NCBI GenBank assembly: GCA_022449765.1
Contig: JAKUPZ010000004.1
Coordinates: 1 to 64,000 of the forward strand
Length of the DNA stretch: 64,000 nt
Direction: 5' to 3'
Source of the DNA: Dehalococcoidia bacterium
Lineage (GTDB): Bacteria; Chloroflexota; Dehalococcoidia; Lucifugimonadales; Australimonadaceae
Every line of letters starts with the position of its first letter. Positions within the stretch are counted from its first letter, which is position 1. Positions 36,138 through 63,577 of the stretch are shown in pieces. Both the position numbers and the translations under genes were made by a program. Under the pieces are notes generated by a model that saw only the letters and a program-made list of their open reading frames with translations, had not been told where the DNA came from and did not search any database.

Positions 36138-36199
36138 GGTGCCCCTCCCAATATAAGTTGATGAAGCAAAGCTTTCGACTCGGTATACTAACAGACAAT

Positions 36200-38209: not shown

Positions 38210-38251
38210 TCTATAGACTTATTGATAAGAGCTAACATTACATAAAATATA

Positions 38252-38746
38252 TTATTTTATTAAGTTGAATATTGGTGGCGATAAAAACCCCGCGACAAAA
38301 GGAAATGGCAAGTTAACAATCATTCGACTCCATGTAAAAGCTCCGCCAAGAAAGGGCCATTCCCACATTACAGTTCTTGTAATTGGAATTGTATTCCAAG
38401 CCGTAATAAAAGCCGCTACTGGACCAACTCCTGCACCGGACAAAAAAACTGATCCTGCCAACGGGATCACCACGTAGGGACCGCCTGGTATCAATACGCC
38501 GACAACCGTCCCGATTAATATCCCTGTAAGTCCCGATTCGTTCCCCATCCATTTCGTAATTATTTCTTCAGGAAGGATTACCTGGGTCATTGCAGAAAGC
38601 GCCATACCAAGGATCAGCATTTTGCCAACTGTCTTAAGCAGTAATGCGCTTGTTATAACGCCTTCTCGAATCCCAGAAAATCCATGCCTTTGCAATACAA
38701 ATACTGAAGCTAAAAGAACTAAAACAGCAAGTAAATAGGTACTCAT
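38252..38746 (-). CDS. Half-size ArsP/YraQ-type permease (second half)
   Basis: A 164-residue membrane protein with about four to five hydrophobic segments. It contains LIGTVVGVLIPGGPYVVIPLAG followed by a Gly/Ala-rich helix, the pattern of the ArsP_1 (DUF318) permease repeat, where a P-x-C-S-C-type loop is here PGGPYV. Full-length members are ~300-350 residues with two such repeats. This gene encodes one repeat and the overlapping upstream gene encodes the other. Known members export methylarsenicals or are linked to metal homeostasis; the substrate here is unknown. Confidence 0.7.
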   Translation of the reverse strand: MSTYLLAVLVLLASVFVLQRHGFSGIREGVITSALLLKTVGKMLILGMALSAMTQVILPEEIITKWMGNESGLTGILIGTVVGVLIPGGPYVVIPLAGSVFLSGAGVGPVAAFITAWNTIPITRTVMWEWPFLGGAFTWSRMIVNLPFPFVAGFLSPPIFNLIK

Positions 38747-39330
38747 GAGTCAGACGTCTCAGATTTACCGATTTTTGCTCTTGCTGACTCCTGTGCACTC
38801 CGTGGCATCATTCTAAAAACAATTGGAACTAACACCACAGACACTAAGACTAACCAAATGGTGGCAAATGTCCTTGCGAGTGCAAGTGGTATTCCAAGAA
38901 ATGGAACTTCATATACCAAAAATCGATTTACCGTAAACATATTCCTTGCAGCTGTGAAGGCAGCTATAGAACCGATTCCAGCTCCTCCGTGCATCAACGC
39001 TGCAGCTATAGGGTACATAACGTAAGGACCTCCCGGGGAAAGTGCTCCAGCAGCAGCACCAATGAGAAAGCCTTTGACCGAAGCTTCATCTCCCATCCAT
39101 CGACCAACAGTCGCTGGAGGGAACAAAATCGTAAGTAGTCCGGCCAGAATAAAACCCAATGTTAGTGCCGGAGCAGCAGTTCCAAATAATTCAAAGGTAG
39201 TGATACCGCCTTCAATCACCCCAGAAATACCGTGTACTAGTAGTACCAAGCTTGTAACTAGCGTCAGTAAGAAAACCATCGTCAAAAATGAAGGGTCTTT
39301 CCACCAAGGTTTTTTAGAATTCTGGCGCAT
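38743..39330 (-). CDS. Half-size ArsP/YraQ-type permease (first half)
   Basis: A 195-residue membrane protein with an N-terminal basic stretch (KKPWWKDP), about five hydrophobic segments and a charged tail. The core AAAGALSPGGPYVMYPIAAAL is the same repeat as in the next gene, seen with FLIGAA before and IAAFTAARN after. The stop overlaps the start of the second half by four bases, so the pair is made together and probably forms a heterodimeric permease equivalent to one ArsP protein. It is not a frameshifted single gene: both halves have their own start and complete ends. Confidence 0.72.
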   Translation of the reverse strand: MRQNSKKPWWKDPSFLTMVFLLTLVTSLVLLVHGISGVIEGGITTFELFGTAAPALTLGFILAGLLTILFPPATVGRWMGDEASVKGFLIGAAAGALSPGGPYVMYPIAAALMHGGAGIGSIAAFTAARNMFTVNRFLVYEVPFLGIPLALARTFATIWLVLVSVVLVPIVFRMMPRSAQESARAKIGKSETSDS

Positions 39331-40330: not shown

Positions 40331-43252
40331 ATGAATAGACCTCTCCGTTTCATTATAGCTACACCCATATGCGATGGGCACGATGTTGCTGCTGCTGCAA
40401 TTACCAGGATTCTTCGGTTGGAGGGAGCACAAGCCGTTTATATTGGCTTCAACAAAACTCCTTATCAAATAGCAAAAGCTGCTTCTGAAGAAGACGCTAC
40501 AGCTATCGCCATCAGCACTTATAACGGCGGTCATGTGGCTTTCTTGAAAGAACTTGTTCAAGAGCTCAAAAGACAAGGAATCAACGATATTCCTATTTTT
40601 GTGGGGGGAGGAGGCACTATCCTTGAAAAAGAAATTGAGCCTCTCAAGAAAATTGGTATTACTAAGGTCTATCGCCCTCCATTAGATTTGACAGATGCAA
40701 TTCGAGACATGATCTCCATTGCTTCCACTCATTCCTATAAGGAACCATCACCCAATGGATCACCATCTCGAATACTGGCACAAACCCTTACATTAATTGA
40801 AGCCGAGGAATTGAGTACCACTTACCCAAAGAATGCGTCCATACCTCCGTTGGTATGGGGTATTGGTGGTAGAGGCGGTGCGGGCAAGAGTACACTTATC
40901 GACGAGCTTATTTTAAGGTTCCTAATTTCTACTGAGGGATCCATCGCAATATTAACTGCGGACCCTACTCTCGGCGATCGATTGAGAATGATTCACTGCT
41001 ATAATCCAAGGGTGTTTATGCGGTCCGTTTCAGTACGACCTGGGGAAAGCACTAGTGGAAAACTAGCACCGCTGATCACCAAAATACGAGAAAATGGATA
41101 CCAATTAATACTCGTCGAATCTGTGGGTCTTGGTCAAAACGAGTTAGGCGTTGCACCTATTGTAGATTCTTCTATCTTTTGTATGACGCCAGAGTACGGA
41201 ACTGATATCCAGCTTGAAAAAGAAGCTCTCCTATCTTCAAGTGAAATCGTAGTGATGAATAAAAGGGATTACCCTCAATCCGAAGCCCGTGCAAGGCGCG
41301 TACAGCAGTTCATTACGTCGGGTCAAAAATTCTTCTTAACTGAAGCAAAGCACTTTGGTGATCCAGGAGTAAATGAGCTTTTTACAGAAATCGCGCAACG
41401 GTCGGAATTAGGTTCTAATCCTATAGAATTACCTGCATCTCAATTCGTCGAGCAAATTCCATTTAACCGTCGTTCCTACTTGGGTTCAATCGTTGATACT
41501 CATCGCAAGTACTATGAAGATTATGAAAATCTTGGTCAATCTGAGCTTGATGGAATTCAAGCGCAATTCGATCAAATTTGGGACAAATATGGATTTAATG
41601 GAGATTTGTCTGGCTGCAGAATTGAGAATGGTATTGCATATAGAGAAGTCGACAATGGTGAGATCCCAGTCGCCAGAAAGACTACTACTGGCATATGGGT
41701 GCCCGTAATTGGAATACCTCATAAGAATTCGAGTCTCAATGAAATTGTTCGATATGTAAGTCGGCAAAATGTTCCAGGTTCTTTCCCTTACACAGAAGGA
41801 GCTTATCAATTCAGAAGAAAAGATGAAGACCCTATAAGAATGTTTGCAGGTTTAGGGTTACCTGAAACGACGAATCAAAGATTCCATTTACTCGCAAAAG
41901 GGCATGGTTCTCCACGCCTCTCTACCGCATTTGATTCTTTGACTCTATACGGCCTCGATTCTGATGAACCCGGAGCCGCTGCAAAAGTTGGAGAAGGTGG
42001 AGTCGCTGTCGATACTATAGACGATATGCTCCGCCTCTACGACGGGTTTGACCTAGAGAGCACTTCTGTATCTCTCACAATGAATGGACCAGCGCCGACG
42101 ATAATGGCTATGTACCTCGCTGCGGCAAAGCGCCGTGGTTTTGATTGGTCAAAATTAAGAGGGACTATTCAAACAGATATATTTAAAGAGCTACAAGCCC
42201 AAAATGAAGCTCAATTCCCTCTTGAACCGTCCTTACGCCTTATTGGCGACATGGTGGAATTCATGATGCCTAATGTACCTTCGTGGTATCCAATTTCGAT
42301 ATCGGGCTACCATATAGGTGAAGCTGGTGCAAATCCAATTCAAGAATTGGCATTCACTCTAGCTAATGGATTAACTTACATTGAGGTATTTAAATCTAGA
42401 GGATTGTCAGTCGAAGAGTTTACCAAGAAGTTCTCATTCTTCTTTACCTCTGGTTCAGAGCTAGAATTCAATGTTCTTGGCAGGGTGGCCAGGCGTATTT
42501 GGGCTGTAGCTCTCAAAAAATATTATGGAGTTGAAGGAAATGGGGCTGCTCTAAAATTTCACAGCCAAACATCGGGGCGTTCATTACAAGATACCGAACC
42601 TCTTCACAATCTGACTCGAGTCGCACTGCAAGCTGAACATGCACTTCACAACAACACTAATTCATTGCACACAAATTCTTACAAAGAAACTTACACCACA
42701 CCTGAAGAAGATGATGCTTTACTGGCAATGGGAAGCCAGCAGATACCTTTGGTTGAAAGTGGCGATTTTGGTTATATTGAAAATCTGAATCAAGGATCCT
42801 ATGGACTATCATATTTGGAAGATGCGGTTGAGAGCGCGGTTCATCAAATTTTCACTGAAATAAATATGCAGGGCGGAGTAATACCCGCTATCGAAAATGA
42901 ATATTTCCGAACCGCTATTCAAGAAGAAGTCCAAAGAGAGCGCAAAGCGATGCGAGAGGGAGAGCGCAAAATCATTGGCGTGAATTACCTTTCCAACTCA
43001 TCCTCACTGAGACCGCGTGGGCAGCTTGTTAATATTCCAATGAAACAAAAACGACATCAAATAAAACGTACCAAAAATTTCAAAGCCGACAATCAAACTA
43101 ATGCAGCGGTTTCATTGAGAAATTTACAAAAAGTTGCTATGTCGGACGGTAATGTATTTGAGTCACTTTTAGGTGCGGTTGAATACGCAACCGTTGGTCA
43201 AATCACCAATGCACTTTCTGAAGTGTGGGGTAAATTCCGCCCAAGTATGTAG
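40331..43252 (+). CDS. icmF: Fused adenosylcobalamin acyl-CoA mutase with G-protein chaperone (IcmF type)
   Basis: A 973-residue fusion. Residues 1-130 form a B12-binding domain (DGH at 15-17; the usual last Gly of D-x-H-x-x-G is Ala20). Residues ~170-420 are a MeaB-like GTPase with P-loop GGRGGAGKST at 179-188 and NKRD. From about 490 comes the mutase TIM barrel, including GTIQTDIFKE, ISISGYHIGEAGANP, TSGRSLQ and NNTNSLHTNSY. Phe505 (DPIRMFAG) stands where methylmalonyl-CoA mutase has Tyr89, which favours an isobutyryl-type substrate. It rearranges acyl-CoA carbon skeletons by radical chemistry. A class II aldolase follows after nine bases. Confidence 0.9.
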   Translation: MNRPLRFIIATPICDGHDVAAAAITRILRLEGAQAVYIGFNKTPYQIAKAASEEDATAIAISTYNGGHVAFLKELVQELKRQGINDIPIFVGGGGTILEKEIEPLKKIGITKVYRPPLDLTDAIRDMISIASTHSYKEPSPNGSPSRILAQTLTLIEAEELSTTYPKNASIPPLVWGIGGRGGAGKSTLIDELILRFLISTEGSIAILTADPTLGDRLRMIHCYNPRVFMRSVSVRPGESTSGKLAPLITKIRENGYQLILVESVGLGQNELGVAPIVDSSIFCMTPEYGTDIQLEKEALLSSSEIVVMNKRDYPQSEARARRVQQFITSGQKFFLTEAKHFGDPGVNELFTEIAQRSELGSNPIELPASQFVEQIPFNRRSYLGSIVDTHRKYYEDYENLGQSELDGIQAQFDQIWDKYGFNGDLSGCRIENGIAYREVDNGEIPVARKTTTGIWVPVIGIPHKNSSLNEIVRYVSRQNVPGSFPYTEGAYQFRRKDEDPIRMFAGLGLPETTNQRFHLLAKGHGSPRLSTAFDSLTLYGLDSDEPGAAAKVGEGGVAVDTIDDMLRLYDGFDLESTSVSLTMNGPAPTIMAMYLAAAKRRGFDWSKLRGTIQTDIFKELQAQNEAQFPLEPSLRLIGDMVEFMMPNVPSWYPISISGYHIGEAGANPIQELAFTLANGLTYIEVFKSRGLSVEEFTKKFSFFFTSGSELEFNVLGRVARRIWAVALKKYYGVEGNGAALKFHSQTSGRSLQDTEPLHNLTRVALQAEHALHNNTNSLHTNSYKETYTTPEEDDALLAMGSQQIPLVESGDFGYIENLNQGSYGLSYLEDAVESAVHQIFTEINMQGGVIPAIENEYFRTAIQEEVQRERKAMREGERKIIGVNYLSNSSSLRPRGQLVNIPMKQKRHQIKRTKNFKADNQTNAAVSLRNLQKVAMSDGNVFESLLGAVEYATVGQITNALSEVWGKFRPSM

Positions 43253-49780: not shown

Positions 49781-50695
49781 TTAGACAAAAAGATCTTCTA
49801 GAGCCCAATTCTTATGAATCGAACCCGTCCTATATAAAGAATCTACGAGTTCTTGGACTGAAGAACCGTGAATATCTAAGCCTTGATTCCTTGGGAATAG
49901 TCCTAATTTTCTGAGTATTCCTACTTCAAGTCCCTGGTGAATAGCCTCATCAGGCTCTTCAGTCATATATATCTCAGTTGCGCTATCCATGGCACGACAA
50001 ACAGCTTCAGCTAATCCGGGATTCAATTGGTGAGATTCTTCCTTTATCACTATCAGTGTATTTATAGGAAATCTATTCTTTTTTGCATTGTATTGCTTGA
50101 TCAAAGGGTAAGGGTCTTCCACCAAAAATTTTACTGAGTCATCAAGAGTCGCATTGCCCCCTGCTACAACTAAGGCATCAATTTTCCCTTCAATTAGCTT
50201 CTGCTCTAAATCAATGGTTTTTTCGCGAAGGAACGCAGGTGGCTTTAAATAGGAAACCCCTGCTAGGGAATCATTTTCACCTTCGACCCAAGTTATTTTT
50301 TCCAAGTTTACGTCATACTCAGAAGCAAGTACTGACCTTAGCCAGACTGCAGGATTTGAAGAAAAGCCTAAAGGAACTCCTATTCTTTTACCTTCGAGGT
50401 CTTTAGGTGTCTCGATACCAGATTTTTTATTTACCGTTACACCTGTCAAAGGGAAAAAAAGATTAGGGAAAATGGGAAGCCCAAATAGCTTTACTCCACT
50501 ATCTTTTGCAATGATGAAATTCCCTAGTGTCAATTCGCCCACATCATACGGGCGGGTCGTAACCATTGCAGGGAAAATCGGGGCAGGTGCGGGGCCAGCG
50601 TCAATTATTTCTACATCAAAATTTTCAACCTGAACTTTACCACTAATTAAGTGTCTAGTTTCTAATCGGTTACCTACTGCTACTGTAATCGCCAT
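49781..50695 (-). CDS. 4,5-dihydroxyphthalate decarboxylase-like protein (Pht5-like, copy 2)
   Basis: A 304-residue cytosolic protein of the periplasmic-binding fold, no signal peptide. Its layout matches Pht5-like proteins: a short N-terminal strand, DVGELTLGNFIIAKDSGV, IPIFPNLFFPLT-type segment, ETPKDLEGKRIGVP, and a C-terminal ALEDLFV. Pht5 decarboxylates 4,5-dihydroxyphthalate to protocatechuate, but the family is broad and often over-annotated. It is the last gene of a six-gene operon; its ATG overlaps the cupin stop by one base. Confidence 0.7.
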   Translation of the reverse strand: MAITVAVGNRLETRHLISGKVQVENFDVEIIDAGPAPAPIFPAMVTTRPYDVGELTLGNFIIAKDSGVKLFGLPIFPNLFFPLTGVTVNKKSGIETPKDLEGKRIGVPLGFSSNPAVWLRSVLASEYDVNLEKITWVEGENDSLAGVSYLKPPAFLREKTIDLEQKLIEGKIDALVVAGGNATLDDSVKFLVEDPYPLIKQYNAKKNRFPINTLIVIKEESHQLNPGLAEAVCRAMDSATEIYMTEEPDEAIHQGLEVGILRKLGLFPRNQGLDIHGSSVQELVDSLYRTGSIHKNWALEDLFV

Positions 50696-51282
50696 TATTT
50701 CCTCGTAGTTCGCGCATCATGAGCAGAAAAAGATCTACTACGTCCACTTTTAACGTCATACCGATGTCGAATAATATTAGTTAAATCCATGCTTGTAATC
50801 CGCACATAGATGGTCTCAGTTTCGCTTGAGCCCTGTGTACTGTGTATTTCGCCGGGTAGGAAATAGTGGGCATTACCAGGAAGCTGTTCAATTGTTTGAG
50901 TAGTTTGCAAGGAAGGCATTTCACTACGGTCATCTGAGTAGCGGTAAGCGTAGCGGGTCTGTGTATTTGAGCCTTGCTGTACTCCATATACCACAAAGCA
51001 GGCTCCATGGTCATGAGGCGACGGCACAGTCTTTTTTGCTGCTGGTTGCCGATATGCAAGTATCATGAATCCTGCATCAGGATGGCCTAATTCTTCGTCC
51101 TTATATATTTCATACGTCCCGTTTTCCTCACCGAACTTGTCGCTATTAAGTGGCCAGCCTGCATCAAAGCCTTTCTCAACAATCTGCGCAATCAAGTGAG
51201 CTTGCTCGCGAGGATCTAAAGAGTTTTGAAATACCGACCGAATTTCTTCAATTAGTTGTTCTTCAGTGTACGTTATGCTCAT
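50695..51282 (-). CDS. Cysteine-dioxygenase-like cupin
   Basis: A 195-residue single-cupin protein. The metal triad looks complete: SPHDHGACFVVYGVQQG (H-x-H) and GEIHSTQGSSE (third His). This is the pattern of thiol dioxygenase-like cupins and of related iron proteins. N-terminal ~60 residues are helical and unusual. It is sandwiched between two Pht5-like genes with one-base or few-base junctions (start 51282, AAAGGTTC upstream). Probably an iron-dependent oxygenase; substrate unknown. Confidence 0.75.
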   Translation of the reverse strand: MSITYTEEQLIEEIRSVFQNSLDPREQAHLIAQIVEKGFDAGWPLNSDKFGEENGTYEIYKDEELGHPDAGFMILAYRQPAAKKTVPSPHDHGACFVVYGVQQGSNTQTRYAYRYSDDRSEMPSLQTTQTIEQLPGNAHYFLPGEIHSTQGSSETETIYVRITSMDLTNIIRHRYDVKSGRSRSFSAHDARTTRK

Positions 51283-51288
51283 GAACCT

Positions 51289-52257
51289 TTAGCTTTTCAA
51301 AGTCGTTTCAAAAAATAAATCATCAACACTCATTTTATTAGGGATCAGGCCTTGTTCGTATTCATATGAAATAAATCGCTCTAAGTTCGGCCGATTAGCC
51401 TCAACTCCAATAGCCCAAGGATCCCCTCCAAACACATTACGCTCCTCTTCTAGGTAATGACGACCCCATGTCAATCTACTCCAATTTGGATCATCCATGT
51501 ACCTAGTCCATATTTTCTGAGCATTTTGGAATCCTTCCATTACGCTTAACGCAATCCAAGGATGTCTATCTAATACTTCCGTTTTAAGCGCAATTATATG
51601 CATAATTGGATAAAACCCGTTTCGCTTGTAATAATTGATTTCTTCTTTTCGGGGGTCCGAAAATAATCGTCCAACTTCCTGCGCTTGCTCTAAATATGGC
51701 TTGGGCGGCCTAGGTGATAAGTACGCAGATACTTCCCCTTGTACCAATTCTTCGCCTAATGTTTTACCTCTCTCCATCCGTTCCACTGTCACATTAGCGG
51801 GGGGCTCAAAATCGACCGGTTCATCAGCAGTAGTCACCCAATGAACCTGATCTAACGGCACTCCGTATTCGGTTGCAAGATCACCTTTTGCGAGTACTGA
51901 TAATGTAGTTTGAAAAGAACGTAGTGCAACTTTTTTCCCGATCAAATCTTTTGGTTCTTTGATTCCAAGCTGCGTATTGATATACATCTGAGACTGACTG
52001 AATAATCTACGAGGGAATATGGGGATTGCAGTAAGGGAAACTCCTCGAGCTTTAGCCATAACATATGATCCTAGGGACAATTCGCAAATATCAAATTCTT
52101 GATTTGCGAGCATTCTTTCATGCCTCCTACCGCCGATACCTTCTTGCCCAATAATGAGTAAGTTGAGATCAATACCTTTCATTCCCGCAGTTCCTTCAAT
52201 CCATGGTATGTGGCGCTCGTAATGATCGAGAGCCATGCTTAAGCTAAGGTTACTCAT
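51289..52257 (-). CDS. 4,5-dihydroxyphthalate decarboxylase-like protein (Pht5-like, copy 1)
   Basis: A 322-residue member of the same family. Key features: LSMALDHYERHIPW at the start, FDICELSLGSYVMAKARG, IPIFPRRLFSQSQMYIN, GIKEPKDLIGKKVALRSFQ, and MSVDDLFFETTL at the end. These agree closely with proteins annotated as 4,5-dihydroxyphthalate decarboxylase. No export signal. The ATG overlaps the M29-like stop by one base (TAATG). Whether the substrate is the phthalate diol or another aromatic or heteroaromatic acid is inference. Confidence 0.78.
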   Translation of the reverse strand: MSNLSLSMALDHYERHIPWIEGTAGMKGIDLNLLIIGQEGIGGRRHERMLANQEFDICELSLGSYVMAKARGVSLTAIPIFPRRLFSQSQMYINTQLGIKEPKDLIGKKVALRSFQTTLSVLAKGDLATEYGVPLDQVHWVTTADEPVDFEPPANVTVERMERGKTLGEELVQGEVSAYLSPRPPKPYLEQAQEVGRLFSDPRKEEINYYKRNGFYPIMHIIALKTEVLDRHPWIALSVMEGFQNAQKIWTRYMDDPNWSRLTWGRHYLEEERNVFGGDPWAIGVEANRPNLERFISYEYEQGLIPNKMSVDDLFFETTLKS

Positions 52258-53321
52258 TAAAGATTTTCTCCGTATTCTTTTGCCATTAGTTTTATATCTG
52301 GCTCTTCAAGCAAACATGCAGTGCCGTCTTCCCAGAAAGGGACTCCATCAAGTGCAATTGATTGATTTGAAATGTAGGCTGATAAAGAGGACGGAATCCT
52401 GCCTATATGGAAATGCATAACATCAGAATTGCTCTGCTGGCCAGGTTTTTTTTCGGCCTTCGGATGGAACCCTCCATGAAATGAGTCAATTTGGTACGAA
52501 TTCTCAAAACCATATTGATCTACATTTCGATTTAGCAATGATTGAAGTTGTTTTTTAGTCCATATCGTATTACCAGAAGGATCGTCGCGTTGGTTAGATC
52601 TAGTGCTTTCTTCATCCCAATCTATTCGCTGTAGCCGATTGTCCATAACTGATAAAAACATCGGGCTTTGGAAGGCATTCCTATCAGCCATTCCAGGATG
52701 GTCAAAGGCAATTACTCCCGCTGCATCGGCGCTTCCTACTGGTGCATATACTTCTCCGGGAAACACACGCTCAGTTCTACTAAGTTCAGCATCTTGAACA
52801 AAAAACGCGTCAGCAACTTCGCTTGCAGAAGCAACGCGACCAGCAATATCTGTGCCTTGCGGAGTTGTTATTCTATAAGTTTGTGCAGTTTGCGTAATTT
52901 CTTCTATCTTCCCTGCCAATGCCATAACAAGGCGCCAATCAAAAAGTGAATGCGCTGTTGCAATTGCTTCAGGAGTGCGAATTCGATTGTTTACGCGTGT
53001 CAAAGATGCATGATTATTATCTGTTAAATAATTAAGTAGTAATACTCGATTGAAAGCACCATTAAGTATTAATTTGTCGGCTGCTAAAATTTCAGAAAAC
53101 TCCCTAGATTGTAGTTGCTTTTCTGAATTAATAGGCTCTGTCCATAAGGAGATTGGCTTTCCTCCTGCATTTGTAATTGCTTCTTCAATTAAATCAATGA
53201 GCGAGGAATCCATAGTCCCTCGCTCATTGATTAATAGAACATTTTCGCCTTTTTGGACTGAAACACAGTGATTAACGAGATTGGAAACTCCGTTTAAAAT
53301 CCTTGTCGTTTCATCTGCCAT
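52257..53321 (-). CDS. M29-aminopeptidase-fold metalloenzyme, possibly NicX-like dioxygenase
   Basis: A 354-residue protein with the N-terminal shape of M29 (AmpS/aminopeptidase T) proteins: NCVSVQKGENVLLI-type start, then LIEEAITNAGGKPISL. Later RVFPGEVYAPVGSADAAG matches the FP-GE metal-site region, and SFHGGFHPKA and MHFHIGRIPSS carry further His. The same fold serves 2,5-dihydroxypyridine 5,6-dioxygenase (NicX). Its place between amidohydrolases and Pht5-like genes favours a catabolic (hetero)aromatic role over peptide cleavage, but this is inference. Confidence 0.65.
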   Translation of the reverse strand: MADETTRILNGVSNLVNHCVSVQKGENVLLINERGTMDSSLIDLIEEAITNAGGKPISLWTEPINSEKQLQSREFSEILAADKLILNGAFNRVLLLNYLTDNNHASLTRVNNRIRTPEAIATAHSLFDWRLVMALAGKIEEITQTAQTYRITTPQGTDIAGRVASASEVADAFFVQDAELSRTERVFPGEVYAPVGSADAAGVIAFDHPGMADRNAFQSPMFLSVMDNRLQRIDWDEESTRSNQRDDPSGNTIWTKKQLQSLLNRNVDQYGFENSYQIDSFHGGFHPKAEKKPGQQSNSDVMHFHIGRIPSSLSAYISNQSIALDGVPFWEDGTACLLEEPDIKLMAKEYGENL

Positions 53322-53327
53322 AATTCC

Positions 53328-54422
53328 CTAACCTAGTCGATAGAAACGCTCGGCGTTTCTATACAAAATCGCGGCCTTATCAGAAGAAGTAAGGTCAGGA
53401 TTATCTCGAAGCTCACTAATTTCTTCTTTGCATGTTTGATGATTCACTTCATGCGGAAAGTCAGAAGAAAATAAAAATGGTTTATTCCCTGCTACTTTTA
53501 CAGCAAAAGGAAGCGTCAGTTCATCACCTTCCACTCCTACAAAAATCCTGTCTTCGTCTACATTCCGTAAAATGTAATCGGTAACAGATTCGCCTTTATT
53601 CATTTGCAGAAATCGGCGCTCAGGGTCATATTGAATATGGCTGTCCCATGAACGCTGAAACCTTTCTAGGCAACCAACAAACCATGCTGCACCTGCCTCA
53701 AGGAAACCAAATCTGGCATTCGGATACTTATCCAATACTCCATTGAAGACAATACCGGCAAAGTTCACCATTTGCCCGAAGGGATGACCCAATGCGTTTA
53801 CCGCAGCATACGGGCTCATATCATCAAGACCCATGTGGTCATGAACGCCGCCATGAATTCCTATTGCGCAACCTAACCTGTCAGCCTCTTCGTAGATAGG
53901 CCAGTATTTGGGGTCACCAAGATGGTTTTGCAATTGCAATGCACCGGTACCTGGCAACATGGCTCCAGTGAAACCCAATTCTTCAACGATCCTTCTAAGT
54001 TCAATGACAGCCTCTGCAGGTTCTTGCAATGGAATAAGCCCCGCAGCTTGGAACCTTGAATCTTTACTTACGTATTCATCGTAGACCCAATTGTTGTACG
54101 CACGTGCAAGTTCTATGGCCCAATCCCGACTTACAACCCTACCAAAAGCCAGTCCATTCGATGTGTAAAGAACAGTTTTATCAACTCCGACATCTTGTAA
54201 AAAATCGACCCATCCTTCTCTACCAACCTGGGCAAATGCTCCTTCAGGTAAGAAATGCTTATTGGCTGCATGTAAATGGTCGTTTGGAGGAAAAGGACCT
54301 CTGGTCGTTACAAAACTTCTGTCTTTGTATTCATCAGGCATTCGATCCCAAATAGCCTGATGGTCTTCAACCAAATGACCATCCCCATCAATAACTCTTT
54401 CAATATTCTCGGTAGTCATCAT
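53328..54422 (-). CDS. Amidohydrolase-2 family protein (copy C)
   Basis: A 364-residue ACMSD-like amidohydrolase. Motifs VIDGDGHLVED (D-x-H), AIGIHGGVHD, and SSDFPHEVNHQ. It is closely related to the next gene upstream, with most motifs and the spacing the same, so the two are a tandem duplication. Group members perform non-oxidative decarboxylation, hydration (LigJ) or hydrolysis. AAGGAG precedes two adjacent ATG codons. The M29-like gene follows after six bases. Confidence 0.85.
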   Translation of the reverse strand: MMTTENIERVIDGDGHLVEDHQAIWDRMPDEYKDRSFVTTRGPFPPNDHLHAANKHFLPEGAFAQVGREGWVDFLQDVGVDKTVLYTSNGLAFGRVVSRDWAIELARAYNNWVYDEYVSKDSRFQAAGLIPLQEPAEAVIELRRIVEELGFTGAMLPGTGALQLQNHLGDPKYWPIYEEADRLGCAIGIHGGVHDHMGLDDMSPYAAVNALGHPFGQMVNFAGIVFNGVLDKYPNARFGFLEAGAAWFVGCLERFQRSWDSHIQYDPERRFLQMNKGESVTDYILRNVDEDRIFVGVEGDELTLPFAVKVAGNKPFLFSSDFPHEVNHQTCKEEISELRDNPDLTSSDKAAILYRNAERFYRLG

Positions 54423-54430
54423 TTAGCTCC

Positions 54431-55537
54431 TTAATTCGTTGCTAGCTGGTAAAACCGCCCAGCGTTGCGATACATAATGGCTTCTTTATCTTCAGCTGAA
54501 AGCTCTGTGTTTTCACGTAATTCATTTATTTCTGCCTTGCAAGTATCTGCGTCTACTTCATGGGGATAATCAGAAGAAAATAAATAAGGTTTGTTGCCAG
54601 TGATCCTAACTGTTTCTGGAAGTGCTAGCTCATCACCTTCAACGCCAATAAATATCCTGTCTTCGTCTATATGCCTACAGATATAGTCAGAAACCTGTTC
54701 GCCTTTGCGAATATTTAAAAATCTACCTCGAGGATCATATTGAATATGGGACGCCCATGAACCATTAAAGCGCTCCATGCAAGTAAGAAGCCAAGCTGCG
54801 CCTGCTTCCATAAAGCCAATTTTTACACCTGGGTATTTATCAAATACTCCGTTAAAAATGATCCCTGCGAACGCCACCATTTGGCTCATTGGATGCCCAA
54901 GAGCATTAATGGGTGCATATGGGCTCATATCGTCCATCAATAAGCCTTCGTGCGCGCCCCCATGAATACCTAATGCGCAGCCTAATTTTTCTGCTTCTTC
55001 ATAGAGAGGCCAGAATTTACTGTCTCCTAAGTGGGGTTGCTGTGCTCCTGTAGAAGGAAGCATTGCTCCCACGAAGCCAAGATCTTTGACCATACGTCGA
55101 AGTTCTTCTACTGCTGCTGCAGGCTCTTGTAGAGGGAGTAAGCCCATAGCTTGAAACCTATCACCTCTGGATACATACGTGTCGTATACCCAATTGTTAT
55201 ATGCCCGTGCAAGTTCAGTGGCCCAGTCCCTGCTGACAATTTTTCCAAATCCTAAACCGCCAGTTGTGTATAAAACGGTAGAATCAACTCCGACTTCATC
55301 CAGAAATTCTATCCAGCCATCAGGGCCGACATTAGCAAACGCCCCTGGCGGCGTAATATGACGGTTAGCTGAGTGCAAATGATCTATAGGAGGAAACGGA
55401 TTGCGAGCACCTCTATCGCCAAAGCTTTTCCCTTTGTACTCTTCCGGCATGTAAGCAACAATGGCATCGATATCCTCCATAATATGCCCATCACCGTCAA
55501 TTATTCTCTCTAAGTCTATAGACTGCTTCGTAGTCAT
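54431..55537 (-). CDS. Amidohydrolase-2 family protein (copy D)
   Basis: A 368-residue paralogue of the previous gene and first gene of the six-gene minus operon. Metal-site motifs: IIDGDGHIMED (Asp16, His18), ALGIHGGAHEG, and FSSDYPHEVDADTC. A GGGGGG stretch lies before the ATG. LigJ, the oxalomesaconate hydratase missing from the LigK-LigU-LigI cassette, belongs to this amidohydrolase group, so copies C and D are candidates; I cannot decide from sequence alone. Confidence 0.86.
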   Translation of the reverse strand: MTTKQSIDLERIIDGDGHIMEDIDAIVAYMPEEYKGKSFGDRGARNPFPPIDHLHSANRHITPPGAFANVGPDGWIEFLDEVGVDSTVLYTTGGLGFGKIVSRDWATELARAYNNWVYDTYVSRGDRFQAMGLLPLQEPAAAVEELRRMVKDLGFVGAMLPSTGAQQPHLGDSKFWPLYEEAEKLGCALGIHGGAHEGLLMDDMSPYAPINALGHPMSQMVAFAGIIFNGVFDKYPGVKIGFMEAGAAWLLTCMERFNGSWASHIQYDPRGRFLNIRKGEQVSDYICRHIDEDRIFIGVEGDELALPETVRITGNKPYLFSSDYPHEVDADTCKAEINELRENTELSAEDKEAIMYRNAGRFYQLATN

Positions 55538-55724: not shown

Positions 55725-56960
55725 ATGGTAACGAGAAATGCTGATTTAGCAAACTGGCAAGAGCCAGAAGGTATGAATAAAGCAGGTTTTGGCTTTTGGA
55801 AAACGCCAAAATCTCCTTATGATTTATTTATGGAAGCCCAAGGATTTGAAATACATCGTGATATCGGAGTTAGAAGAATCCAAGATTTACCTCTCAAGCC
55901 GGTGAAAAGGCTTGGAGGGAATGGCGTAGCTATACAGTTACTGGGTACTGAGCATCTATGGGGAATGTATGTTATAGAAGTTCCTGCAGGAGGCGCTCTT
56001 CATCCTGAGAAGCATATGTATGACAAGATTGTATACGTTGCAGAGGGTAGGGGTTCAACAGAAGTTTGGCACGAAAGTAGCACTAAAAAGCAAACATTTG
56101 AATGGAGCGCAGGCTCTCTTTTTGGCATTCCTTTGAATGCTACTCACCGTATAGTGAACGCTACTTCCAGTCCAGCATTACTACTATGTGGTACCACTGC
56201 ACCTAACATAGTAAATCTTATTCGAGATCCTGAGTTCATATTCAATAATCCTTATGAATTCAAAAATTTATTTGATGCAGAAGATGACTACTTCAAACCT
56301 GTAGATGATGTTTTCGCTGACCCTGTCAGAGGTCTTGCGATGCGCAGAACTAACGTAATACCTGATATCGTCAATTGTCATTTACCTCGTGATAACAGAA
56401 GGTCATTCAGTTATCGACGTGTAGAGCCTCATATGGCTGGCGCAAACATGTATATGAAAATTGGGCAGTATGAAACTGGTCAGTATTCAAAAGCACACAA
56501 ACATTCTTCAGGTGCGATACTTGTATGCATTAAAGGAAAAGGTTATAGCGTGACATGGCCTAGTCAGCTTGGTGAGCACCCATTCGAAAGTGGACATGGT
56601 GACGAAGTTAGAAGGCAAGACTACGAACCTGTAGGTATGATTAGTGCAGCACCGATGACAGGCGACTGGTTTCATCAGCACTTTGGGACATCACCAGGAG
56701 GAATCCGTTTCCTTATTTTTGATGGGCCTTACGGACCTGGAATAAAGCCAGGAAAAGCCCCGGGCTCTGATGCCAGAGATGGTGGAGCGCAAGATACTCG
56801 AGATGGAGGTAATGCCATTGCCTTCCCAGACCAAGATCCTGCTATCAGAACAGAGTTTGAAAGAATGATTGGCCTAGAAGGATTGGAAAGCACTATGCCT
56901 GAATGGGCCTACACTGATTACGCACCCCCTCCAGGCGCTGCGGACGTTGGTGGCTTCTAG
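55725..56960 (+). CDS. Bicupin protein (copy 2)
   Basis: A 411-residue two-cupin protein. The first barrel has HPEKHMYDKIVYVAEGRGSTEVW and the second KAHKHSSGAILVCIKGKGYSV with a late WFHQHFG, so both barrels keep His-rich metal sites, unlike copy 1 where the first is worn. The C-terminus is Gly/Asp-rich. Similar proteins are sometimes named ethanolamine-ammonia-lyase-activating. TAGGAGGG lies before the ATG. A strong terminator follows and an OCD-like gene faces it. Confidence 0.8.
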   Translation: MVTRNADLANWQEPEGMNKAGFGFWKTPKSPYDLFMEAQGFEIHRDIGVRRIQDLPLKPVKRLGGNGVAIQLLGTEHLWGMYVIEVPAGGALHPEKHMYDKIVYVAEGRGSTEVWHESSTKKQTFEWSAGSLFGIPLNATHRIVNATSSPALLLCGTTAPNIVNLIRDPEFIFNNPYEFKNLFDAEDDYFKPVDDVFADPVRGLAMRRTNVIPDIVNCHLPRDNRRSFSYRRVEPHMAGANMYMKIGQYETGQYSKAHKHSSGAILVCIKGKGYSVTWPSQLGEHPFESGHGDEVRRQDYEPVGMISAAPMTGDWFHQHFGTSPGGIRFLIFDGPYGPGIKPGKAPGSDARDGGAQDTRDGGNAIAFPDQDPAIRTEFERMIGLEGLESTMPEWAYTDYAPPPGAADVGGF

Positions 56961-57010: not shown

Positions 57011-58123
57011 TTAATCTCGTATATCTTGTAGAAACCACTCAGTAGGTAATTCTCGTCCGAGTCCTTGCTGCCGAGCTTTTTCGTATACCATTCCACCAAC
57101 AGCAGCAAATTGTAATCCCTGATTTCCACTGTTGAGGTACAGAGTTATATCTTCAGGTGAAGTTCTTTGAATATTTCCACTAGCTAGATCATTGAAGGTA
57201 GGGGTGCTATCGTCACCACCTGCTCCCACTCGTGAACCAGCATGGCGTTGAGGTAATCGTTTTTTTTCTTCTTCAGTACCCCCAATATAATCCCCGTTGT
57301 TGTAACCTTCTCCCATATGTCTTGGGTCTTCATTACGAGGGCGGGAATGAGCAACGCCTTGCTTTACGATAATGTCCGCGCGCGAAAAAACTTCTTCATC
57401 TAATTCGCCTCTAACATCAGTAACATGCTGCCCTGACTGCAGCCATGCGCCCTTTAACGCAGGTTCCATAGCGTTTGTGCAAGCCGCCACAATATCAACT
57501 CCCTCTACTGCAGCTTCGGGGGTATCGACAGCTCTTACTTCTAGCTCTAATTTCGCAGACATCTCTTCAGCGTAAAGCTCACGGTTCGCCTCCGTTGGAC
57601 TGAATACTTTCACCTGCCTTATATCCCGTACTGCGGCAAAAGCCTCAAGGTAAGTACGTGCCATACCACCTGATCCCAACATTCCAACTGTTTGAGAATC
57701 TGGTCGGGAAAGGTACCTCACTCCCAATCCAGCTCCACCGCCAACACGCATATGCTGCAAAATGCCGTCGTTAATTATCGCCAATGGCTCTCCATTTTTT
57801 GTACTAAATAAGAATATCAAACCACAATATAATCCAGGCTCTACAGAGTATTTATCTTCTTTCCAGTATCCATGTTCATCGGTAGGCCAAAAGAGGATGT
57901 CTGATTTCATTCGGATTGCAAAGACACCAAGTTCTTTACTTGCCCCTTCCATTGTGCCCCATCGGTAATAACCGTCTGTTCGTTCCGCAGGCATGTACAA
58001 ATCAATCCTCGGCCTATGAACTGAGTCCCCAGTTGGTAATCCGCGAAATGCTCTATCCTGAGCATCTATACAATCAATCATAGGTAAAAGTTTTTCTACT
58101 TCAGCATTATTAATAAGTAACAT
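57011..58123 (-). CDS. Ornithine cyclodeaminase / mu-crystallin family oxidoreductase (copy 2)
   Basis: A 370-residue protein closely similar to the copy at 30683-31795: shared HRPRID, YRWGTMEGASK, IRMKSDI, YCGLI, FSTKNGEPLAIINDG, VGMLGSGGMARTYL and the end FLQDIRD. AAAGGAG precedes the ATG. It is the last gene of a minus operon after the Pht4-like dehydrogenase (11 bases). Imine/ketimine reductase or cyclodeaminase chemistry is likely; substrate unknown. Confidence 0.86.
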   Translation of the reverse strand: MLLINNAEVEKLLPMIDCIDAQDRAFRGLPTGDSVHRPRIDLYMPAERTDGYYRWGTMEGASKELGVFAIRMKSDILFWPTDEHGYWKEDKYSVEPGLYCGLIFLFSTKNGEPLAIINDGILQHMRVGGGAGLGVRYLSRPDSQTVGMLGSGGMARTYLEAFAAVRDIRQVKVFSPTEANRELYAEEMSAKLELEVRAVDTPEAAVEGVDIVAACTNAMEPALKGAWLQSGQHVTDVRGELDEEVFSRADIIVKQGVAHSRPRNEDPRHMGEGYNNGDYIGGTEEEKKRLPQRHAGSRVGAGGDDSTPTFNDLASGNIQRTSPEDITLYLNSGNQGLQFAAVGGMVYEKARQQGLGRELPTEWFLQDIRD

Positions 58124-58134: not shown

Positions 58135-59343
58135 TTAATCTACCGTGGCAGTTTGGTGTTCTAGGAAAATTTCTTTACGTTGAATACCTGAGTTTTCTAC
58201 TGCCAGTAATAATTCTAATGTCGCATTACCCCAAGAACCATCTGCAGGTAGAGGTCTGTCTGTCGTTATTGCGTCATAGAAAGTATTTATCCTGCCATCT
58301 CTACCGTCTTCGTACGTAATCAGAGGTATTTCAACTCTTTCTTTATCTCCATACACTACTAGACCTTCAGGAGTCATTCTCACGTCACCATGGTCAAAAC
58401 TGGCAACAAATGGGCCGCCCAAAATCCAGCCCGCTGATGAAGGACCGGGTTCTTCAAACATATCGCCTGAGCGATCAAGTCCATACCGTTCTGCTCGTGC
58501 AGCCAATTCTTCCCAATCGGCTCCATTTGATGATGCAAGCTCCTTACGTGCAGCTGCATGCTTTTCTGGGTTTGGGAAAATACCTTCTTTGCCAACACCA
58601 TGAACCAATTCACGTGAGTCCCAATGGTCGTAACCACTATAAACAGCTGTCGCAAAAACTCCGTTCTCAAAATCCACATATGCTGCGTGCGCACCGGGTA
58701 CCCGCCTTTCAGGGTCCCAAGTCGCTGCCGTACCTCGCACGCTACGAACTAATCCGCCCCCAATGGTTCTGATTATGTCGAATTGGTGCGGTCCCTGCCT
58801 CCAGAGAATACCTCCGCCAGGACCAGGCGTTAATTCTTCACCAGAGCGAGGTCTGTATAACCAATCTTGGTATCTCCAGTGATTGATCATTCGCAATTGG
58901 CCTAATTCTCCAGTGCAAACCATTTCTCGAATTCTAAGAATTCTTGGTTCAAAGCTATGCTTTACGTTCACTCCTAAAAGTACTCCGTGCTTTTCGGCAG
59001 AAGCTACTAGGGATAGTCCTTCTTCAACATCTACTGTCATTGGCTTCTCAATAAGAACATGCTTTCCAAATGACATCGCAAGCTCACAATGAGTTGTATG
59101 CAGGTGATTTGGCGTGGCAATATACACTAAATTAATGCCGGGCTGGCTACATAATTTTTCAGCATCGGTAGTTACCATTGCGTTTGGAAAATCTTCTTGA
59201 AAACGACTTAATATCTCAGGGTCTAAGTCTGCAGCGCCTCGTATTTCGAATTTCGGATTTATTGCAAATCTTGGGATCATAGCAACTGCAGCACCGCCCA
59301 AGCCAATGATTCCTACGCCAATTACTGTCTGATCAATTGTCAC
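58135..59343 (-). CDS. Gfo/Idh/MocA oxidoreductase, phthalate 4,5-cis-dihydrodiol dehydrogenase (Pht4)-like
   Basis: A 402-residue dehydrogenase starting at GTG with GGAG six bases upstream. Rossmann motif GIIGLGGAAVAM, then LIEKPMTVD with the EKP lysine. The C-terminal domain has WRYQDWLYRPRSGEEL, GGGILWRQGPHQFDIIR, GTAATWDPERRVPGA and TAVYSGYDHWDS, a pattern I associate with phthalate dihydrodiol dehydrogenases. Pht4 makes 4,5-dihydroxyphthalate, the substrate of Pht5, and Pht5-like genes lie in the neighbouring operon. The ring dioxygenase that would supply the dihydrodiol is not seen here. Confidence 0.75.
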   Translation of the reverse strand: MTIDQTVIGVGIIGLGGAAVAMIPRFAINPKFEIRGAADLDPEILSRFQEDFPNAMVTTDAEKLCSQPGINLVYIATPNHLHTTHCELAMSFGKHVLIEKPMTVDVEEGLSLVASAEKHGVLLGVNVKHSFEPRILRIREMVCTGELGQLRMINHWRYQDWLYRPRSGEELTPGPGGGILWRQGPHQFDIIRTIGGGLVRSVRGTAATWDPERRVPGAHAAYVDFENGVFATAVYSGYDHWDSRELVHGVGKEGIFPNPEKHAAARKELASSNGADWEELAARAERYGLDRSGDMFEEPGPSSAGWILGGPFVASFDHGDVRMTPEGLVVYGDKERVEIPLITYEDGRDGRINTFYDAITTDRPLPADGSWGNATLELLLAVENSGIQRKEIFLEHQTATVD

Positions 59344-60518: not shown

Positions 60519-62039
60519 ATGACTGAAAATAATTATTACGACGTAATTGTAATTGGTGGAGGATCAGCAGGATGCGTTGCAGCAACGAGGCTCTCTGAGG
60601 ATCCATCAAGAAAAGTTTTACTTTTAGAGGCTGGCCCAGACCCTGACCCAATCCCTCATATTATCGCAGACGGTACCTCAAGTAATCGCCCCATACTTGA
60701 ATCACCTTTTGTCATTATGTACCCAACCGAAAGAAAAATTGATGGAAGTGAATATTACCCAATTAGCGGCCGGGTACTTGGTGGAGGCTCGTCAGTGAAT
60801 ATGATGGGGGTAGTGAGGCCGACTCAGCATGATTTAGAAAAATGGGAGTCTCTAGGAAACCCTGGTTGGTCATATGAAGACTGTTTACCTTTCCTTAAAC
60901 GAATAGAAAGTGATCAAGATTACCCAAACGCCCCGCACCATGGGAACAAGGGCCCATTGACAGTAAAGCGCCGTCTTTCATTTGACAATCCACTTGATGC
61001 GCCGCAAGAAGCATTCAAGCAGCGAGCTTTAAACCTAGGATACCCATTGCTACCTGATCGAAACGTCCCCAATCCTTTTGGGATTTCAATGGGTGCATCC
61101 AATGTCAAAGATGGAATCCGGCAATCCACTGCCGTAGCATATTTGAACCCTGCTCGAGAAAGACAAAACTTAACAATCATTGCAGATGCTCCAGTCTTAT
61201 CCTTAGATTTGGTTAATAACCAAATCCGATCCGTTAAATACAAGCATGGATCTCAAATCAAAGAAGCATCTGCTGATACTTATGTCCTTAGTTCGGGTGT
61301 ATACCACAGCCCTCAAATACTTATGCTTTCGGGTATAGGCTCAAAGGAAGACCTTGAACCATTGGGCATAAATATTGTCCACGAATTACCTGGGGTAGGG
61401 CATAACTACCAAGATCACGCGGCAGTTAACATGGTCTTTGAAAGCACTGAAGGGTTTGCTGCTGACTGGGTTGTATCAGGTTTACAACTTATCTATAAGA
61501 GTGATCCTCAATTACCCAATGGGGATTTCCATCTGTATATGCGGGCACCTATGGTAATTGAAGGCTTGAAACCTCTTATGCCTTTTGCTGCTAATTTAAT
61601 TGAGCAAAAATCGAGAGGTCATGTATACATCACCAGCACTGACCCTGATCAATTACCTATCATAGACGATGGGCTCTTGCAGCATCCCGATGATACAAAA
61701 GCCATGCAAAGGGCTATGGAATTTATACAAAATTTCGTGGATGACGATACTATGCGTCCATATTTTGGAAGATTAACGCAACCTGGGCCCAGTGACGATT
61801 GGATTGAATACGCCCAATCAACTTATGATTGCTACCATCATGGAGTTGGGACCTGCATGATGGGACCGTCTTCAAATAACATGTCTGTAGTAAATAATCG
61901 ACTAAAAATGCATGGAATTGAAAATTTATACGTAGCAGATGCATCCATAATGCCTACGGTAACCCATGCAAATACCAATATTACTTCAATAATGATTGGT
62001 GAAAGAGTTTCAGATTTCATTAACGAAGATTCTGCATAA
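60519..62039 (+). CDS. GMC-family flavoprotein oxidoreductase (copy 1)
   Basis: A 506-residue FAD alcohol oxidase/dehydrogenase of the glucose-methanol-choline family. FAD loop VIGGGSAGCVAATRL, GMC signature 1 GRVLGGGSSVNMMG, signature 2 region SGVYHSPQILMLSGIG. The C-terminal catalytic pair is His in YHHGVGTCMMG and Asn in HANTNITSIM. It probably oxidises a primary alcohol; substrate unknown. GAGGTGTGAG precedes the ATG. A close paralogue follows after 14 bases. Confidence 0.9.
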   Translation: MTENNYYDVIVIGGGSAGCVAATRLSEDPSRKVLLLEAGPDPDPIPHIIADGTSSNRPILESPFVIMYPTERKIDGSEYYPISGRVLGGGSSVNMMGVVRPTQHDLEKWESLGNPGWSYEDCLPFLKRIESDQDYPNAPHHGNKGPLTVKRRLSFDNPLDAPQEAFKQRALNLGYPLLPDRNVPNPFGISMGASNVKDGIRQSTAVAYLNPARERQNLTIIADAPVLSLDLVNNQIRSVKYKHGSQIKEASADTYVLSSGVYHSPQILMLSGIGSKEDLEPLGINIVHELPGVGHNYQDHAAVNMVFESTEGFAADWVVSGLQLIYKSDPQLPNGDFHLYMRAPMVIEGLKPLMPFAANLIEQKSRGHVYITSTDPDQLPIIDDGLLQHPDDTKAMQRAMEFIQNFVDDDTMRPYFGRLTQPGPSDDWIEYAQSTYDCYHHGVGTCMMGPSSNNMSVVNNRLKMHGIENLYVADASIMPTVTHANTNITSIMIGERVSDFINEDSA

Positions 62040-62053
62040 TTTAAGGAGTATTC

Positions 62054-63577
62054 ATGGAAAATAATCAATTTTACGATGTCATAATTATTGGAGGAGGTTC
62101 TGCAGGTTGTGTTGCTGCTACACGCCTATCAGAAGATCCTCGTCGTAACGTCTTATTGCTTGAAGCTGGACCTGATCCGCAGCCTATCCCTGAAATGATC
62201 GCAGATGGAAAAGGGAATAACCGACCAATTCTTGAATCTGAGTATGTCGTAATGTACCCCACAAAGCGAAAGATTGACGGGAGCGAATATTTTCCTCTAA
62301 GTGGACGCGTGCTTGGAGGTGGCTCGTCAGTGAACATGATGGGCGTCTCTAGGCCTACACAGTATGACTTAGATCGATGGGAATCTTTAGGAAACCAGGG
62401 GTGGTCCTATGAGGACTGCCTGCCGGTTCTGAAAAGAATTGAAACTGATGAGGATTTTGGTCATTTACCGTATCACGGCAATCAAGGACCTCTAACGGTA
62501 CAGAGAAAATTATCATTTGATGATGGTGAGCTAGCTCCACCAATGCAAGCATTTGTGGACCGGGCAACTAACTTAGGTTTCCCTATAATGCCTGATAGCA
62601 ATGTGCCGACCAGGTTCGGACTTTCTCCTTCAGCATCTAATGTTAAGGATGGTAAGCGTCAATCTACCGCAGTAGCTTACATAGGGCTGGCAAGAGACCG
62701 AGCGAATTTGACAATTATTGATAATGCGCCGGTTGTAGGCATAAAAACTGATGGCTCGCGCGTGACGGAAGTACAATACGAACAGGGAAATGAAATTCAT
62801 ACAGCGGGCGCAGACACTTTTATTTTAAGTGCAGGAACATACCATAGTCCTCAAATATTAATGCTTTCAGGCTTTGGCCCAATATCTGAGCTTGAAAAGC
62901 ATGGAATTAAAGTCGTCCACAACCTAGAAGGAATTGGCTCCAATTATCAAGATCATGCGGCAGTAAATATGACTTTTGAAGGGGCAGGGGAGTTTTCTCC
63001 CGACTGGGTCGTTGCAGGGTTTCAATTAGTTTATAAAACACACCCAGACCTACCTGTAGGGAATTTCCATATCTATATGAGAGCTCCTATTGGCGTAGAA
63101 GGACTTAAGCCAATGATGCCGGTCGCTATGAACCTTGTGGAACAAAAATCTAGAGGACGTATTTCCTTAAACTCTACTAACCCCCATGAACTTCCAATAG
63201 TAGATGATGGAATGTTGCAGCATCCAGACGATATCGCAGACATGCTAAACGTAATGGAATTCATACGAAACTTCATGGATGATTCAGTTATGAAACCATA
63301 TTACGGCAAATTAATGCTTCCATCTGAAGACGAAGATTGGACAGAATACGCCCAGTCAACTTATGACAGCCATCATCATGGTTCTGGTACTTGTATGATG
63401 GGATTAGCTTCTAATCCCATGGCAGTAGTAGATAACCGGTTACGCATGCATGGTATGGATAACCTATTCGTAGCAGACGCATCCATATTTCCGACTGTCC
63501 CGCACAGTGCTACAAACGTCTCAGCCATTATGGTTGGCGAAAGAGTTTCAGATTTTGTTAAAGAGGCTGGCCATTAG
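62054..63577 (+). CDS. GMC-family flavoprotein oxidoreductase (copy 2)
   Basis: A 507-residue tandem paralogue of the preceding gene with the same FAD loop and signatures (GRVLGGGSSVNMMG, AGTYHSPQILMLSGFG). The catalytic His remains in HHHGSGTCMMG, but the C-terminal segment reads HSATNVSAIM, putting Ala where copy 1 and most relatives have the second catalytic Asn or His. It may have altered activity or another substrate. AAGGAG precedes the ATG. Confidence 0.9.
   Translation: MENNQFYDVIIIGGGSAGCVAATRLSEDPRRNVLLLEAGPDPQPIPEMIADGKGNNRPILESEYVVMYPTKRKIDGSEYFPLSGRVLGGGSSVNMMGVSRPTQYDLDRWESLGNQGWSYEDCLPVLKRIETDEDFGHLPYHGNQGPLTVQRKLSFDDGELAPPMQAFVDRATNLGFPIMPDSNVPTRFGLSPSASNVKDGKRQSTAVAYIGLARDRANLTIIDNAPVVGIKTDGSRVTEVQYEQGNEIHTAGADTFILSAGTYHSPQILMLSGFGPISELEKHGIKVVHNLEGIGSNYQDHAAVNMTFEGAGEFSPDWVVAGFQLVYKTHPDLPVGNFHIYMRAPIGVEGLKPMMPVAMNLVEQKSRGRISLNSTNPHELPIVDDGMLQHPDDIADMLNVMEFIRNFMDDSVMKPYYGKLMLPSEDEDWTEYAQSTYDSHHHGSGTCMMGLASNPMAVVDNRLRMHGMDNLFVADASIFPTVPHSATNVSAIMVGERVSDFVKEAGH

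Follow-up and report, generated by a model that had tools for sequence, protein, structure and literature searches.

The question raised by positions 49781–55537 of the stretch analysed here is what chemistry is carried out by the six closely spaced genes found there. The stretch (the window) covers the first 64,000 nucleotides of contig JAKUPZ010000004.1 of a Dehalococcoidia bacterium (assembly GCA_022449765.1). A first-pass annotation, made from the sequence alone, described two amidohydrolases, an M29/NicX-like protein, two Pht5-like proteins and a cupin, and proposed a route in which the amidohydrolases and Pht5-like proteins act as decarboxylases, while the NicX-like protein and the cupin open a (hetero)aromatic ring. 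As described below, the six genes form a conserved and previously undescribed operon built of known enzyme families, in which the two amidohydrolases, AhA and AhB, look more like oxygenases than decarboxylases. The reading that we prefer, to which we assign a probability of roughly 40%, is that of a catabolic operon in which AhA and AhB would perform a hydroxylation, Pht5A a decarboxylation, and the cupin and the NicX-fold protein later steps. In the order of transcription, the genes are:

54431..55537, minus strand: AhA, a PF04909 protein of 368 amino acids, with the six-ligand set of the type seen in amidohydrolase-related dinuclear oxygenases (AROs), D16, H18, H192, E244, D323, and H326, as well as D329 (in the motif PHEVD)
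53328..54422, minus strand: AhB, a tandem paralogue of AhA (66% identity) of 364 amino acids, with the six ligands as in AhA and Asn (PHEVN) at the position of AhA D329
52257..53321, minus strand: NicX/M29-fold predicted metalloprotein of 354 amino acids, with conserved H282, H286, H303, and H305 and without the NicX iron ligands
51289..52257, minus strand: Pht5A, a 4,5-dihydroxyphthalate-decarboxylase-like protein of 322 amino acids, with RPP and PIMH motifs and no obvious signal peptide
50695..51282, minus strand: cupin of 195 amino acids with the thiol-dioxygenase (3-mercaptopropionate/cysteine dioxygenase) fold, with H90, H92, and H147 invariant
49781..50695, minus strand: Pht5B, a diverged Pht5/NMT1-fold paralogue of 304 amino acids, 27% identical to Pht5A over 273 residues, without RPP and PIMH

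The spacings between these genes are 8, 6, -1, 6, and -1 bases. The list of open reading frames (ORFs) thus bears out the earlier description of six genes on one strand with gaps of at most nine bases (8, 6, and 6), and the one-base overlaps also exist, although there are two of them rather than "several". A scan of the operon for consensus promoters and terminators gave no clear excess over shuffled sequence, and for this reason no promoter is claimed. At a threshold of 0.001, Pfam assigns Amidohydro_2 to AhA and AhB and NMT1 to Pht5A and Pht5B, with no match for the cupin or the M29/NicX-like protein, and none of the six proteins is named confidently by NCBIfam.

The window genome (1.6 Mb, 97% complete), that of an uncultured ocean bacterium, is one of seven SAR202 species, belonging to two genera, that carry the full six-gene set in the same order and on the same strand. 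Its own genus contributes the window genome and G001, and the second genus contributes G004, G009, G012, G013, and G014. This retention of gene order across species and genera shows that the set is a real conserved operon and not a chance arrangement; outside the window genome it was recovered in six further species. Identity between the proteins of the second genus and those of the window is 56–60% for the cupin, 58–61% for the M29/NicX-like protein, 66% for Pht5B, 70–72% for Pht5A, and 86–89% for AhA and AhB. Within a class sample of 294 genomes, the M29/NicX-like protein was found only in the window's family, all six sampled members of which have it. Genera g2 and g5 keep it with fewer partners: in G002 its gene is found together with those of the cupin, Pht5A, and a cyclodeaminase-family protein, and in G010 with that of the cupin. 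Relatives of the cupin, Pht5A/B, the M29/NicX-like protein, and the cyclodeaminase-family protein are also clustered in two genomes of another Chloroflexota class, where one of the two contigs additionally carries UbiD and Rieske-oxygenase genes. The genomes of the relatives are SAR202 or Dehalococcoidia metagenome-assembled genomes, which include the sister species OSU_TB62 and the sponge symbiont contig MPMJ01000002.1. MPMJ01 has been placed in SAR202 group VII (PMC6946804), and as it belongs to the same family, the window genome is probably a member of group VII as well. The AhB orthologue of G009 contains an internal TGA, which may reflect an assembly error or decay.

One departure from the first-pass annotation concerns AhA and AhB. 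A joint profile of these two proteins and their relatives finds 8sm9, 8sm7, 8sm8, 8sm6 (SfbO), and PtmU3 as the top solved structures (E 1e-29 to 2e-22), with ACMSD (4.5e-22) and resorcylate decarboxylase (8e-19) both behind these oxygenases. The ARO ligand pattern Asp-x-His, His, Glu, Asp-x-x-His is present in both proteins. The beta-6 position is occupied by Glu244 in AhA, whereas a histidine stands there in the LigY/LigJ-type homologues encoded by this genome and is expected in ACMSD-type decarboxylases too. The name AROs was given in the paper on structures 8sm6–8sm9 (PMC10811679). In the 2-aminoisobutyrate monooxygenase AibH1H2, AibH2 binds two metals via D25, H27, H211, E265, D337, and H340 (PMC7782822), and the six residues listed above for AhA align with these ligands and are invariant in the family, AhB included. 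Among the 39 PF04909 proteins of the window genome, the Glu/His position (fifth-strand side) could be read in 36, of which 33 have Glu and three have His; the one His-type protein that was searched further is LigY/LigJ-like (E 1e-85 to LigY). In a maximum-likelihood tree that contained no ACMSD or resorcylate decarboxylases, the proteins with His, joined by LigY and LigJ, split from the Glu type (PtmU3, SfbO, 8sm7, 8sm8, AhA, and AhB) with support of 99/98, and AhA and AhB group with SfbO, 8sm7, and 8sm8 at 89/88. The metal ligands, the best solved matches, and the position in the tree are thus those of the dinuclear oxygenases, and the two amidohydrolases are best read as candidate oxygenases, closer to the AROs than to the decarboxylases that they had been taken for.

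Several observations weigh against this reading. In known dinuclear members an acid follows the last histidine ligand at a distance of two residues (Asp342 in AibH2, Glu313 in PtmU3). The +2 position in AhA and AhB is Val328, with E327 at +1 in both, and D329, which HMMER pairs with the ARO acid through a one-residue gap, fits only if a one-residue insertion is assumed; consequently, the dinuclear state is offered here as a hypothesis. AibH1, the partner of AibH2, has equivalents of the six ligands but no acid matching D342, and it coordinates a single metal (PMC7782822), so that the ligand set is no proof of a dinuclear site. The E-value margin of the oxygenases over ACMSD is modest, and no Rieske ferredoxin or reductase is found in the operon and its annotated neighbourhood, unlike in the aib cluster. 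This last point is softened by the existence of PtmU3-type enzymes and of distant redox partners, and a Rieske ferredoxin/reductase neighbour served as a search criterion for part of the ARO family and does not define it (PMC10811679). On the other side, the third residue past the last histidine is Asp329 in AhA and Asn in AhB in all orthologues readable there, a contrast that recalls the difference in the acid between AibH2 and AibH1.

The same observations bear on the alternative of a mononuclear hydrolase or hydratase activity for AhA and AhB, which would then have just the Glu-type ligand set in common with the oxygenases and catalyse a non-oxidative, hydrolytic step. It would fit with AibH1, which is described as non-catalytic and has a single metal despite its complete ligand set; with Val328 in place of the acid said to mark dinuclear members; and with the size of PF04909, which holds more than 100,000 proteins, mostly uncharacterised. 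However, where the cited papers name a characterised catalytic protein with this ligand set, it is an oxygenase, and the D/N contrast between AhA and AhB resembles the AibH2/AibH1 pair. We regard a hydrolytic pair as rather unlikely.

The M29/NicX-like protein was modelled with AlphaFold2 from 13 sequences, with a mean predicted local distance difference test score (pLDDT) of 82. The model matches NicX with Z 23.7 (297 residues, root-mean-square deviation 3.2) and the M29 aminopeptidases AmpT, PepS, and AmpS with Z 16.5–17.8; matches below these (Z <12) were treated as common alpha/beta arrangements, and absence of a family from the lists of structure matches was not taken to exclude it. A profile of 21 sequences of the family also reaches NicX (E 6.7e-11), while the protein alone or a profile of its close family gave no useful match among solved structures. 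In Pfam, searches with 13 members of the family gave nothing even with E values of up to 10 allowed, and NCBIfam gave no match for the protein at 0.001. The possibility that this protein is an M29 metalloaminopeptidase, and that the operon accordingly concerns peptides, draws on the fold that it shares with AmpT, PepS, and AmpS. NicX is nevertheless clearly the closer structure, the protein has 354 residues against ~400–413, and it has no Pfam M29 match. The His-x-Asp pair that we take to be typical of M29 corresponds to Ser-x-Ser in this protein, which also counts against a peptidase. This alternative is extremely improbable. Neither of the two outcomes named by the first-pass annotation as counting against its proposal has come about, since the protein does not resemble an aminopeptidase and the gene set is conserved in other species.

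The likeness to NicX lies in the fold and does not extend to the metal ligands. NicX binds iron via H265, S302, H318, and D320, and its substrate residues include H105, E177, and H189 (PMC7910607). In two alignments the former correspond to S280, H305, S312, and S314, and the latter fall on N91, D171, and V186, with none kept in either group. As both the iron ligands and the substrate-binding residues are lost, NicX chemistry cannot be assumed, and ring cleavage of the NicX type is not supported. Among close family members H282, H286, H303, and H305 are all conserved, and all but H286 are also conserved in most of the remote relatives; these four residues could form another metal site. Remote relatives of the protein (19–23% identity) were found in plasmids of the Roseobacter group, beside sarcosine-oxidase-like and Rieske genes, and are too distant for a transfer of function; a scan of viral contigs found no relative.

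These results can be set against the decarboxylation and ring-opening route of the first-pass annotation, which has a precedent in picolinate degradation, where the amidohydrolase decarboxylase PicC feeds the NicX-type dioxygenase PicD (2,5-dihydroxypyridine dioxygenase) from one cluster. Agreement with such a route is found in NicX being the nearest fold and in the match to the Pht5 family. The glutamate of AhA and AhB in place of the LigY/LigJ-type histidine, the separate clades of the two types, and the loss of the NicX iron ligands and of H105, E177, and H189 all point elsewhere, and make it quite improbable, although a (hetero)aromatic acid is a possible substrate.

The two Pht5-like proteins and the cupin agree better with their first assignments. 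A joint profile of Pht5A and Pht5B matches 4,5-dihydroxyphthalate decarboxylase 9jp7 with E 5e-62, and both proteins, judged by sequence, belong to the Pht5 family, as had been proposed. The tblastn matches of Pht5A bear the name 4,5-dihydroxyphthalate decarboxylase, and the RPP and PIMH motifs are common to Pht5A and to the Pht5 proteins of phthalate-type clusters in Massilia and Thalassospira, which also contain Rieske and Gfo/Idh genes. Pht5B lacks both motifs and therefore may have another role. A role of the pair in periplasmic transport was rejected, since no signal peptide is visible by eye and the operon has no ABC permease or ATPase. The model of the cupin (pLDDT 91) matches 3-mercaptopropionate, mercaptosuccinate, and cysteine dioxygenases over the full length (Z 16–17.7), which agrees with the thiol-dioxygenase likeness noted at first, and its three-histidine site is invariant in ten sequences. 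Sequence families gave no Pfam match at 0.001 and mercaptosuccinate dioxygenase at E 0.22 only, and Cys93 of cysteine dioxygenase has no counterpart in the cupin, as judged by eye.

Three further genes flank the operon:

55725..56960, plus strand: bicupin, a divergent neighbour with a weak profile match to gentisate 1,2-dioxygenase, adjoining the operon in most species
57011..58123, minus strand: ornithine cyclodeaminase/mu-crystallin family protein, retained near the operon in other species
58135..59343, minus strand: Gfo/Idh/MocA oxidoreductase, retained near the operon in other species

In OSU_TB62 the bicupin gene (L009:6018-7255) is split into two ORFs, by assembly error or decay. In a Sinorhizobium plasmid, relatives of the bicupin (55%) and of Pht5A (40%) are clustered with Rieske oxygenase genes, class II aldolases, and EutA. 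Elsewhere in the window genome, a relative of AhA (53%) adjoins a Rieske oxygenase, a class II aldolase, and a Pht5-like gene, and on contig C18 (L125) a relative of Pht5B is found with two EutA-family proteins and a cyclodeaminase-family protein. These mixed neighbourhoods support a modular catabolic role, and AhA and AhB could take the place of the Rieske oxygenase, which the operon lacks.

The neighbours also bear on the nature of the substrate. A non-aromatic compound, such as a small amino-, sulfur-, or branched aliphatic carboxylate, might be hydroxylated by AhA and AhB as 2-aminoisobutyrate is by AibH1H2, with the cupin acting on a sulfur group and the cyclodeaminase-family neighbour on an amino group. 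Relatives of the amidohydrolases act on 2-aminoisobutyrate and, as a surrogate, on aminoethylsulfonates; the fold of the cupin and the retention of the cyclodeaminase-family gene are likewise consistent with such a substrate. Pht5A is, however, closest to an aromatic acid decarboxylase, the Sinorhizobium relatives of Pht5A and the bicupin sit with Rieske oxygenase and class II aldolase genes, and the cupin lacks a counterpart of Cys93. We consider a non-aromatic substrate unlikely. Amdase-family (maleate isomerase) genes are present in the window genome far from the operon, and are neutral with regard to a picolinate or nicotinate route.

Other gene groups may be mentioned here. Positions 29590–34215 of the window encode an aldo/keto reductase, a cyclodeaminase-family protein (60% to that at 57011–58123), a PF04909 protein, and a bicupin (28% to that at 55725–56960), a set that looks like a duplicate of the operon neighbourhood. 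A set of the lower protocatechuate 4,5-cleavage type lies at 23160–25833 (RraA/LigK-like protein, 4-oxalomesaconate tautomerase with NF033377 above the cut-off, and a sulfomuconolactone-hydrolase-like amidohydrolase). At 40331–43252, fused B12-binding, MeaB, and methylmalonyl-CoA mutase domains (IcmF-like) are followed by a class II aldolase and an NMT1-fold protein, and two GMC oxidoreductases stand in tandem at 60519–63577. On contig C12 of the window genome (~35627–39106), a Rieske oxygenase, a LigB-type dioxygenase, and a LigY-like hydrolase (L101:741-1763, E 1e-85) form a group that resembles the lignin biphenyl (DDVA) route. In a plasmid of Phyllobacterium zundukense (L064), a bicupin relative lies beside EutA, a nickel/cobalt transporter, and NikR, which hints at a nickel- or cobalt-dependent step.

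The observed operon and its conservation, together with the computed folds, sequence family membership, and ligand positions, permit a scheme for the oxidative route in which every activity, the order of the steps, the substrate, and the assembly of AhA with AhB are what we infer. AhA and AhB would be the two subunits of an oxygenase like AibH1H2, in which a dinuclear site (Fe/Fe or Mn/Fe) activates O2 for the hydroxylation of a small carboxylated, perhaps aromatic, substrate. Pht5A would then remove a carboxyl group from the hydroxylated product, whereas Pht5B may be a diverged partner or a second decarboxylase. The cupin, predicted to be of the iron type, and the NicX-fold metalloprotein would follow with cleavage or oxidation reactions, and the bicupin, cyclodeaminase-family, and Gfo/Idh neighbours probably belong to the same route.

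The setting of the operon gives this scheme a wider interest. SAR202 bacteria are believed to be oxidisers of organic matter that is recalcitrant to other microbes. Published readings of their genomes have centred on expansions of Rieske, flavin, and enolase proteins (PMC5395668, PMC6946804), with amidohydrolases unmentioned in the main texts of both papers. The Rieske expansion of group VII has been published (PMC6946804), and the window genome has 34 Rieske domains; its oxygenase-type (Glu) amidohydrolases number ~33 in 1.6 Mb. PF04909 matches (E <=1e-20) amount to 10–34 in the better-assembled genomes of the window's family and mostly to 0–2 in other families of the order, with the exceptions of G022 (32) and G029 (19). 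We can speculate, tentatively and against the odds, that an undescribed oxidative pathway is encoded here, that its first step is taken by a heteromeric oxygenase of the AibH1H2 type, with AhA as the catalytic and AhB as the diverged subunit, that the NicX-fold enzyme of this pathway has a metal site of a new kind, and that SAR202 bacteria of this family have expanded such oxygenases to ~30 per genome as a means of access to resistant dissolved organic matter, in addition to the reported Rieske enzymes. If these amidohydrolases were indeed O2-using Mn/Fe oxygenases, much of the oxidative chemistry in SAR202 genomes would be misannotated, and the metal requirement of carbon turnover in the deep ocean would have to be re-examined. 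The operon offers a compact conserved set for probing amidohydrolase-type oxygenases with purified proteins.

Comparison with known systems reveals partial likenesses to six of them. The pic cluster of picolinate degradation (PicC and PicD, PMC10142695) also joins amidohydrolase-family and NicX-fold genes, but PicC is a decarboxylase, whereas an oxygenase-type ligand set is found here and the NicX ligands are lost. NicX itself (2,5-dihydroxypyridine 5,6-dioxygenase, PMC7910607) shares the overall fold and length with the M29/NicX-like protein, which lacks the three named substrate residues along with all four iron ligands and has its own set of histidines instead. Thiol dioxygenases share with the cupin the full-length fold (Z 17.7) and the three-histidine motif, although not the Pfam match or Cys93. 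Pht5 (PDB 9jp7; Massilia plasmid cluster) resembles Pht5A over the full length and in both motifs, and its relatives lie near Rieske and Gfo/Idh genes; on the other hand, Pht5A is ~33% identical to the plasmid Pht5 proteins, Pht5B has neither motif, and the Rieske gene is absent from the operon. PtmU3 and SfbO (PMC10811679), the top solved profile matches with the same ligand set, come from other genomic settings and differ in the acid at +2, which is Val in AhA and AhB. AibH1 and AibH2 of Rhodococcus wratislaviensis (PMC7782822, PMC10401708) are 28% identical to each other, compared with 66% for AhA and AhB, which have other neighbours, no adjacent ferredoxin or reductase genes, and the acid one residue further on; both systems are nevertheless tandem PF04909 pairs with six ligands at the same positions, in which the acid near the last ligand is kept in one partner and lost in the other.

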